This document shows positions 20,862-29,036 of a DNA stretch of 40,347 nucleotides, piece after piece. The notes under the pieces were generated by a model, which was not told the DNA's origin, made no database searches, and saw nothing but the letters and a program-made list of their open reading frames with translations. The position numbers were made by a program, and so were the translations under genes. The stretch is from Candidatus Peregrinibacteria bacterium CG10_big_fil_rev_8_21_14_0_10_49_10 (GTDB taxonomy: Bacteria > Patescibacteriota > Gracilibacteria > Peribacterales > Peribacteraceae): assembly GCA_002772545.1 (NCBI GenBank), contig PFDR01000063.1:5171-45517 (forward strand), written 5' to 3'. Within the stretch, counting starts at the first letter, position 1; every line of letters begins with the position of its first letter.

Positions 20862-20905
20862 CTGGAAATATTCACACATAACCGGGAAAAGAGAGGAATA
20901 CGAAC

Positions 20906-20987
20906 GTGGTGGGCGAGAAGTTTATCCTGAGCGAGGAGTGCGCCAAAGGCGAACGACGAGTCGAAGGGAGTCCCACCACCCCGACCA
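20906..20987 (+). repeat. REP-like palindromic element plus exact duplicate of tRNA-Pro 3' end
   Basis: GAGTCCCACCACCCCGACCA at 20842-20861 recurs exactly at 20968-20987; GTGGTGGG (20906-20913) pairs with CCCACCAC (20972-20979) around TTTATCCTGAGCGAGGAGTGCGCCAAAGGCGAACGACGAGTCGAAGG. Confidence 0.8.
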
Positions 20988-21054
20988 AGTTGCATGCGAG
21001 ACGAACATCAAATAATTTGACTTTCCACAAAAAAGCACTAACCTATGCGTAGCA

Positions 21055-21114
21055 ATGATGTATCAGTCCATAATTAGCAGCATTATTATTCTTGCGCTCG
21101 GCGTGAGGAGGTAG
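21055..21114 (+). CDS. Putative attenuator leader peptide MMYQSIISSIIILALGVRR
   Basis: 19 codons with 5 Ile, 2 Leu and 1 Val (ATA ATT ... ATT ATT ATT CTT GCG CTC GGC GTG), followed by a terminator before leuA. Confidence 0.65.
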   Translation: MMYQSIISSIIILALGVRR

Positions 21115-21170
21115 CTGCTGATACGTTTTAAGCCACTTCACCCCGGGCACGTAGCCGGGGGTTTTTGTTT
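21096..21170 (+). promoter_or_regulatory. Transcription attenuator: antiterminator GCTCGGCGTG (21096-21105) : CACCCCGGGC (21139-21148) versus terminator CCCCGG..CCGGGG (21141-21160) + T-tract
   Basis: Mutually exclusive pairings visible; TTTTTGTTTT tract follows the stem. A further hairpin GTATCAG (21060-21066) : CTGATAC (21118-21124). Possible -35 TTGACT at 21017. Confidence 0.65.
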
Positions 21171-21190
21171 TATTTTGATTTTTTTGGACT

Positions 21191-22915
21191 ATGAAACTGC
21201 TCGATACAACTCTCCGCGATGGCAACCAGGCAATACGGAAAGGTTTGGGGCAAAAACTAGACAGCCAGATTGATCTCTTTCGGCAGTATGCACTTGCAGC
21301 AAGTGAGTTCGGCATGCAGTACATAGAGGCGGGCATTCCTATTTCAGGCCCCAGAGCACAGCGCATAGTAGGTTCCATTGCTTTTGATCATAGGGAACGA
21401 GCCGAGACCTGTATTCTGGGTTTTGCACGGGCTAAACAGCAGGATATTGATCTCACAGCAAAAACAGTAGAACCTGCAGCACGAAAAGGGATCGCTCTTC
21501 TTACATCCGTAAGCGATTTGCAGCTCAAGAAATTTGGCATAGTCGCAGGAAAAGAGACACCGGGAAAGCGATCTGCCATGCTTGAACAATTCCGCAAATC
21601 TGTAGCATATGCAAGTGCACAGAACATAGACGAACTTCTCGTGTATCTCGAAGACTCCACACGTGCAGATATCCGGTATCTTATGGATCTGAGTGCGGCA
21701 TTTATAGAAGCAGGAGCCACCATTATTTCCGTACCGGACACGGTTGGTCACATCAATGATCCCGAAGCCTATGCGGAGTTCCTCCAGGAACTCAAAGAAG
21801 GAACTCCCGGACATGAAACGGTGCAGTGGAGCGCGCATCTGCACAATGACCGTGGCATTGCAGTGGCAAACGCTCTTATTGCTGCAAAGCGAAAACTGAT
21901 GGACATTGTGGAAGGCACCATAAACGGAGAGGGCGAACGTGCCGGAAACTTGGCACTGCTTACCTACCTGCTCTGCACGGAAGTCGAGGGCTATTCCAGC
22001 TATCCTGAGCATGCACGTATGGAAGGCATGACGCCGGAACGCCTTAAGAATGCTGAAAAAGTATCGGCATTGGGCAGTTGGGCACTCAATATAGAACGTT
22101 CACCCTACCAACCGGGTGTGGGCGAGTATGTACACCGTACGGCTGCAGGCATGCACCAGGACGGCATACTAAAGGAACCACGTATGTTTGCATCCTATGA
22201 TCCCAATGTCATTGGCGTAGATATACGCACTCCGTTTGTCTTCAGTGACCAGTCAGGGCACAAAGGTCTGCGTGCCATACTGGAAGCAAAGGGGATCACT
22301 CTCTCCGATGAGAAACTCCGGAAAACCTATCTCGACGCTTACCAAATGTCTCTACTCCTGGGGGGCAGTGTTACAGATTCTCTTCTTGAAGCAACGGCCT
22401 GGGAAGCGCAACGTAACGGGAATCCTGCGGTACTGGAAGTAAAGTATGACGAGTTAAGTATTACATACGCCAAACGTGAAGATAGGCATATTGCTCCTTA
22501 CGTAGAGATCATAGGCACATTACAGGTACATGGAAATGATCACCCGTTTAGCGGAAGAGGAGATGGACCCACTTCTGCTTTCGTTGAAGGCATTGGCCAT
22601 GTTCTACGAGATGATTTCGGCATATACATTGATGTGCGAGAATGGATTGAAAAAGCAGTAACGCATGACACAATTGGTCGTGGCGAGGAGGAAGGTGATA
22701 CTGAAGAAAAAGAAAAGTTAGGACGCGAAGCACCGGTATGGGGCATTGTACGTATGAATGTAGGTGATGAGCAGGTAGACGGATACGGTCACGATCCAAA
22801 TGCAACATATGCGAGCTTTAAAGCCTGTCTTCAGGCACTCAATCGCTGGTGCACCACAAAGCAGGCATGCCTCACTTCTCCGTTAGATTCCGGAGATGCC
22901 ACTACAGCGCTATAA
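21191..22915 (+). CDS. leuA: 2-isopropylmalate synthase-like (LeuA family, dimerisation-type C-terminus)
   Basis: MKLLDTTLRDGNQ, SAHLHNDRGIAVANALIAAKRKLMDIVEGTINGEGERAGN, AAGMHQDGILK, C-terminal GHDPNATYASFKACLQALNR. Confidence 0.85.
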   Translation: MKLLDTTLRDGNQAIRKGLGQKLDSQIDLFRQYALAASEFGMQYIEAGIPISGPRAQRIVGSIAFDHRERAETCILGFARAKQQDIDLTAKTVEPAARKGIALLTSVSDLQLKKFGIVAGKETPGKRSAMLEQFRKSVAYASAQNIDELLVYLEDSTRADIRYLMDLSAAFIEAGATIISVPDTVGHINDPEAYAEFLQELKEGTPGHETVQWSAHLHNDRGIAVANALIAAKRKLMDIVEGTINGEGERAGNLALLTYLLCTEVEGYSSYPEHARMEGMTPERLKNAEKVSALGSWALNIERSPYQPGVGEYVHRTAAGMHQDGILKEPRMFASYDPNVIGVDIRTPFVFSDQSGHKGLRAILEAKGITLSDEKLRKTYLDAYQMSLLLGGSVTDSLLEATAWEAQRNGNPAVLEVKYDELSITYAKREDRHIAPYVEIIGTLQVHGNDHPFSGRGDGPTSAFVEGIGHVLRDDFGIYIDVREWIEKAVTHDTIGRGEEEGDTEEKEKLGREAPVWGIVRMNVGDEQVDGYGHDPNATYASFKACLQALNRWCTTKQACLTSPLDSGDATTAL

Positions 22916-28649: not shown

Positions 28650-28991
28650 CTATTGTAGGGACTTTTTTGCTAAGTGTTTTTGTGCACACAGCATCTGAAT
28701 GTACTGCGAAAGCAAGACTACAAACGGAGGCACGCTGATGTAGAACAGATACTCCTCAAGAGGCAGTCCAAAAAACCAAATACCAAGTGCACGCTCCGTC
28801 CCGAAGGTCCATACGCCGTACCACGTAAAAAAAATATCAATGGGAATCGCTAGGCAGCCAAACAGAACAGTGGCAAGCACCAGCGGCACCGGAGAAAATT
28901 TCTTGTAAAATCTCAGTAAGCAAATGAGTACTGCATCCAGTGCAAAAAAGAAAAGTATGGTACTCAGGTACAACATAGATACATACACCAT
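28650..28991 (-). CDS. Single lycopene cyclase-type domain membrane protein (CarR/CrtYc-d-like)
   Basis: IPIDIFFTWYGVWTFGTERALGIWFFGLPLEEYLFYISVPPFVVLL matches the remembered family pattern (D..W...GVW.F......GI...GLP.EE.LF); start MVYVSMLYL preferred over 29024. Confidence 0.75.
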   Translation of the reverse strand: MVYVSMLYLSTILFFFALDAVLICLLRFYKKFSPVPLVLATVLFGCLAIPIDIFFTWYGVWTFGTERALGIWFFGLPLEEYLFYISVPPFVVLLSQYIQMLCAQKHLAKKSLQ

Positions 28992-29036
28992 ACGAATATT
29001 GTGCTGCAGGAACAAGGTAGACATGCTGCACTCTCG

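Follow-up and report, generated by a model that had tools for sequence, protein, structure and literature searches.

A predicted near-leaderless isoleucine attenuator upstream of an orphan LeuA-like gene in Candidatus Peribacteria

Introduction

The leu, ilv, trp and phe attenuators of Escherichia coli combine control codons with a logic of protector, antiterminator and terminator hairpins. In Gram-positive bacteria, genes for branched-chain amino acids (BCAA) are often controlled by T-boxes. Ribosome-mediated attenuation of the E. coli type is outlined in PMC11857589. The authors of a 2010 study knew of leader-peptide systems only from Proteobacteria and Actinobacteria, to which they added Firmicutes (PMC2965389). 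Leaderless BCAA leader peptides have been described in Actinobacteria (PMC8079986, PMC11857589), so the kind of mechanism that we propose here is already known.

We analysed a window of 40,347 nucleotides (contig PFDR01000063.1, positions 5,171 to 45,517, assembly GCA_002772545.1) from an ultrasmall, uncultured Candidatus Peribacteria/Peregrinibacteria bacterium, a member of the CPR, a case that the initial annotation of the sequence had raised as a condition. Its putative attenuator resembles those of Actinobacteria (Streptomyces lividans leuL1-leuA and ilvL, Corynebacterium glutamicum ilvBNC) in having a short leader ORF rich in BCAA codons, a leader that starts at or next to the 5' end of the transcript (probably so in our case), alternative hairpins and BCAA genes downstream (PMC8079986, PMC11857589). 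It belongs to another phylum, differs in sequence, and precedes an orphan LeuA-like gene, whereas the Actinobacterial targets are true BCAA pathway genes. A typical terminator is absent from S. lividans leuL1, but the window attenuator has a strong one. Control codons and the protector/antiterminator/terminator logic are shared with the E. coli leu, ilv, trp and phe systems; unlike these, the window leader is probably near-leaderless and contains the antiterminator arm in its final codons, the single target gene is an orphan, and the window has no matching Rfam family. With the T-box leaders of leuA and ilv genes in Firmicutes it has in common the class of target gene and control by an intrinsic terminator, but the window has no Rfam T-box match and sensing would proceed through a translated ORF.

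Gene regulation in the Patescibacteria is almost unknown. The literature covered by our search, which had most subscription papers and preprints outside its reach, contained no account of leader-peptide attenuation in CPR, and such an attenuator in this group, acting on an orphan enzyme, looks undescribed so far.

Results

The features of the locus, with their basis in brackets, are the following.

21017..21044, + strand: sigma-70-like promoter TTGACT-N16-TAACCT (sequence; geometry shared by relatives)
21017-21022, + strand: -35 box TTGACT (sequence)
21039-21044, + strand: -10 box TAACCT, ending 10 nt 5' of the leader ATG
21055..21114, + strand: leader ORF MMYQSIISSIIILALGVRR, 19 codons, probably leaderless (translation; Ile-rich leader in about 30 relatives)
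21112-21114, + strand: leader stop codon TAG (sequence)
21070..21090, + strand: control codons, Ile 6 and 7 (ATA ATT) and Ile 10-12 (ATT ATT ATT), with two Ser codons among them (sequence)
21060..21124, + strand: protector (1:2) hairpin GTATCAG/CTGATAC with inner GCAGC/GCTGC (MFE folds; cognate-arm test)
21096..21112, + strand: antiterminator 5' arm GCTCGGCGTGAGGAGGT (constrained folds; consensus helix in the Ile and Leu alignments)
21132..21148, + strand: antiterminator 3' arm GCCACTTCACCCCGGGC, overlapping the terminator 5' arm (folds)
21140..21171, + strand: intrinsic terminator ACCCC.GGGC-loop-GCC.GGGGGT, then TTTTTGTTTT (folds)
21191..22915, + strand: divergent 2-isopropylmalate synthase-like enzyme, 574 aa (domain matches, core motifs)

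Every element named in the initial annotation is present: the TTGACT box, the 19-codon ORF, the GTATCAG/CTGATAC hairpin, the antiterminator, the terminator and the LeuA-like ATG at 21191. The antiterminator does overlap the 5' arm of the terminator, but it had been drawn too short: it extends over 21096-21112/21132-21148 (-22.9 kcal/mol in constrained folding), and its 5' arm lies inside the final leader codons and reaches the first base of the stop codon. The leader has Ile in 5 of its 19 codons, including an III run, and the protector, whose outer arms pair 21060-21066 with 21118-21124, overlaps these Ile codons. The terminator stem (21140-21162, about -16 kcal/mol) is followed on its 3' side by a U-tract. 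Elsewhere in the window, a dispersed repeat (20905-20998) follows a tRNA-Pro gene and terminates with a duplicate of the 3' end of tRNA-Pro (GTCCCACCACCCCGACCA). The repeat has two partial copies at other places in the host genome. A protein with a lycopene cyclase domain (NCBIfam CarR_dom_SF) is encoded at 28650-29024 on the minus strand.

Taken alone, the fold of the window sequence is moderately unusual (z = -2.1). The host genome is about 90% complete, and about 95% of it was read for genome-wide counts. Among its 17,099 short ORFs (14-30 codons, all frames), 11 starts open an ORF with at least five Ile and an III run; only two of the loci concerned have a T5 run shortly 3' of the Ile-rich ORF as well, and of these the window locus alone has a suitably placed promoter. 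A scan of named genomes for the pattern returned five Peribacteria/Peregrinibacteria records and three unrelated matches (Desulfobulbaceae, Lentisphaerales, Yersinia), the latter probably due to chance.

What decides in favour of the predicted attenuator is that relatives keep the leader, the stems and the geometry of the promoter. The initial annotation had recognised the logic of amino-acid attenuators, and had named loss of the leader codons and alternative stems from orthologous upstream regions as what would speak against it; both are kept. The nearest LeuA-like ortholog (same genus, 63% identity to the window enzyme) is preceded by TTGACA, the leader MRLRSTIISSIIIPALGVRR (leaders are given up to their stop codon), a GCTCGGCGTGAGGAGGTAGCTGATAC segment in common with the window, equivalent stems and a terminator. 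Further LeuA-like genes of the host family have the leaders MASHQIISSIIITPLRKA, MTHRSIIISIIIASRPRR, MKRSIIIRSIIITRAPRR and others. A covariance model of this Ile form matches 33 of 74 host-family genomes. A class-wide search of 292 genomes (E<=0.001) yields 28 with a match, every one of them from the host family; of seven with a match phylum-wide, one is from outside it. Ile codons predominate in all Ile-type leaders, in agreement with the annotated Ile sensing: in 30 leaders the share of Ile is 27% of residues when read in frame 0 and about 1% out of frame, ATT and ATC swap among leaders, and position 3 of the codons is the most variable (the same codon-position test was uninformative for Leu leaders).

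A sister form with the leader MHQRxLLLGLxLLLLTAEGRLRA is matched by its own covariance model in 58 of 74 host-family genomes; class-wide (E<=0.001), 43 of the 45 matching genomes belong to the host family. Several of these Leu leader ORFs (L107, L108, L114, L118, L121, L125, L148) have in-frame insertions; in those that were read there is a ...CCCTGAGC...GTCGAAGGG-like sequence similar to the dispersed repeat beside the attenuator of the window. Val leaders, MRRSVVVSVLLTVAP and MQSVRVVVSLVLVAVPRIGA, occur at two loci that match the Ile model weakly. The two Val-rich leaders, which have the architecture of the Ile form, lie at L130 (about position 868) and L132 (reverse strand, about 782), both followed by a small uncharacterised ORF and then a UvrD-like helicase gene. 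The Leu model also has a weak match in the host genome, with a Phe/Tyr-rich leader 5' of genes for prephenate dehydratase and a DAHP synthase. This locus (L267, contig C53, about 13,893, minus strand), with the leader (M)IQQTFSYGFYFSPFSAGKEPMRLM, a promoter and a terminator, is a candidate pheA-type attenuator. More short candidate leader-like ORFs with promoter and terminator occur in the host genome at L269 11536 (+), L236 19502 (+) and L240 1407 (-), with Met/His-rich, Cys-containing and Lys/Thr/Met-rich compositions.

The predicted antiterminator, which excludes the terminator, is backed by covariation that is strong in the Leu form and modest in the Ile form, as counted on alignments fitted to the covariance models. 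Among 37 distinct Leu sequences, double changes affect 17 of 23 model pairs, against 7.1 in shuffles (0 of 500 reaching the observed value); sliding the arms against each other lowers the covariation score, and in the antiterminator, the long helix of the model, 94% of cells are paired. The result for this helix is the same in a MAFFT alignment of eight Leu forms that was not fitted to the model. The covariation score of the 29 Ile sequences is 0.270, against 0.207 when shuffled (0/500), with double changes in only two pairs, a number equalled by 118 of 500 shuffles. Pairing energies of cognate arms are better than those of swapped arms for both 2:3 and 3:4 in Ile and Leu forms. For the 1:2 protector, cognate arms beat non-cognate ones in the Ile set (0/5000 permutations); among Leu leaders the test gave a negative result (p 0.27), so support for the protector is limited to the Ile form.

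In folds computed under a ribosome mask on the control codons, the mean probability of the terminator is 0.40 in Ile and 0.37 in Leu forms, and with the ribosome at the stop codon it rises to 0.98 and 0.92. Ribosome position predicts the hairpin in 29 of 30 Ile and 24 of 25 Leu attenuators; the window copy favours the terminator in all states. Its terminator fold has a probability of about 1 at equilibrium under a stalled ribosome, and with the ribosome at codon 10 reaches -25.4 kcal/mol against -22.9 kcal/mol for the antiterminator. Because the terminator wins at equilibrium in every state, the window antiterminator would have to win kinetically, by forming first.

A promoter whose -10 box ends 6-12 nt (mode 10) 5' of the leader start was found at 67 of 75 attenuators, against 2.3% of random ATGs. 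The promoter is not part of the covariance models, so its geometry is independent evidence; and since a sigma-70-like promoter ends this close to the start codon, the leader is probably leaderless or nearly so. The window promoter was missed by a sigma-70 scan because its -10 box is weak, and was recognised by comparison with relatives.

The window attenuator precedes a single gene, of the HMGL-like/LeuA type. Its product has HMGL-like and HCS_D2 domains, a weak LeuA_dimer match and the core motifs, and scores 217 bits against the curated NCBIfam LeuA cutoff of 532 bits; we therefore regard it as a divergent LeuA-like enzyme of putative substrate. A LeuA paralog in the host genome passes NF002086 (556 vs 532) and bears a Leu leader. 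The families of LeuC, LeuB-type Iso_dh, IlvD and IlvE-type enzymes were not found in the host genome as assembled, IlvC gave only a weak sub-cutoff match, and two genus mates had no match above cutoff for those pathway families that were searched in them. The set of downstream pathway partners that goes with a LeuA equivalog (LeuB and LeuC, with IlvC and IlvD) was thus not found in the searched host genome. The gene had been annotated as a lone leuA-like gene; with these families not found, "lone" is correct, while the enzyme itself is LeuA-like and divergent. A LeuA serving leucine synthesis in the host bacterium had been considered, and was dropped after the pathway searches.

Across the family, the 37 genes behind Ile leaders comprise 14 LeuA-like, 9 IlvA-like and 14 matching neither, and the 48 behind Leu leaders comprise 12 LeuA-like and 36 matching neither query (some loci are counted twice). 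The IlvA-like genes encode threonine ammonia-lyase, the entry enzyme of the Ile pathway, and fit the sensing of Ile; what stands behind Leu leaders is a different LeuA subfamily or a small protein. In a protein tree, the leader amino acid tracks the LeuA-like subfamily, with two changes for the Ile group against a mean of 13.8 in shuffles.

Discussion

Our results suggest that the window element very probably controls transcription by ribosome-mediated attenuation, in response to the supply of charged tRNA-Ile. We infer the position of the transcription start, the stalling of the ribosome, the kinetic competition between hairpins and the direction of regulation. The transcript would probably begin a few nucleotides 5' of the leader ATG, and the ribosome would load straight onto the near-leaderless start. 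When Ile-tRNA is plentiful, the ribosome would reach the stop codon and mask the 5' arm of the antiterminator (codons 14-19), so that the terminator forms and transcription ends before the LeuA-like gene. When Ile-tRNA is scarce, it would stall at Ile codons 6-7 or 10-12, and the antiterminator would form first, take the 5' arm of the terminator and allow the LeuA-like gene to be transcribed.

The terminator might instead merely end transcription of the tRNA-Pro gene, with leader and stems coincidental and the LeuA-like gene using its own promoter. The tRNA gene lies directly upstream, and the modest z of the single-sequence fold would fit this account, but leader, stems, terminator and promoter recur before different genes in dozens of genomes, which makes it extremely unlikely. 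We give as little credence to a T-box or another riboswitch that senses tRNA or a metabolite directly next to an incidental ORF. The frequent T-box control of such genes in Gram-positives would favour it, but an Rfam search of the window at gathering and relaxed thresholds gave tRNAs as the only significant matches and neither a T-box nor another riboswitch, Ile or Leu enrichment is confined to frame 0, and the control amino acid swaps between Ile, Leu and Val while the architecture stays constant.

A real attenuator could also respond to a general slowdown of translation, or to several amino acids, rather than to Ile specifically. Two Ser codons lie within the Ile block, and many targets are uncharacterised small proteins; yet the leader amino acid tracks the enzyme subfamily and IlvA-like genes stand behind Ile leaders, and we find this broader sensing unlikely. 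That the leader peptide is a functional small protein, with the RNA stems secondary, is suggested by the conserved C-terminal residues of the leaders (TAEGRLRA, ALGVRR). Still, the codons concerned form the covarying antiterminator arm, so this conservation is explained at the RNA level and a functional peptide becomes very unlikely.

Simple pathway feedback does not describe the target logic, because many attenuators of the family precede uncharacterised small ORFs. The LeuA-like enzyme may carry out an orphan reaction that is induced by starvation, with exchange of its product or substrate between the bacterium and a host cell. More tentatively, and with slightly less than even confidence, we propose a lineage-wide modular attenuator regulon in Peribacteria: a cassette of near-leaderless leader and terminator, re-coded for Ile, Leu or Val, would stand before orphan LeuA-like genes, IlvA and small proteins in bacteria in which key BCAA enzymes were not found, and would serve to read the amino-acid supply from a host or the environment instead of controlling the cell's own synthesis.

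The family provides sequence-level evidence for amino-acid-responsive control in Patescibacteria, together with a list of candidate loci and covariance models that detect further members. It also offers a handle on the role of orphan LeuA-like enzymes where the pathway was not found, and on that of the small proteins behind Ile and Leu switches. Six of the latter, all behind Leu leaders (L138, L140, L141, L145, L148, L150), have a common motif like EAGRYGPDERDRMRxxGIRVExP; the one scanned of this set, that of L145, had no Pfam match. At another locus (L017, genome G045, contig C6), a Leu leader is followed by a short ORF with the LeuA-like motif AFCHEAGIHQ and then by a full LeuA gene.
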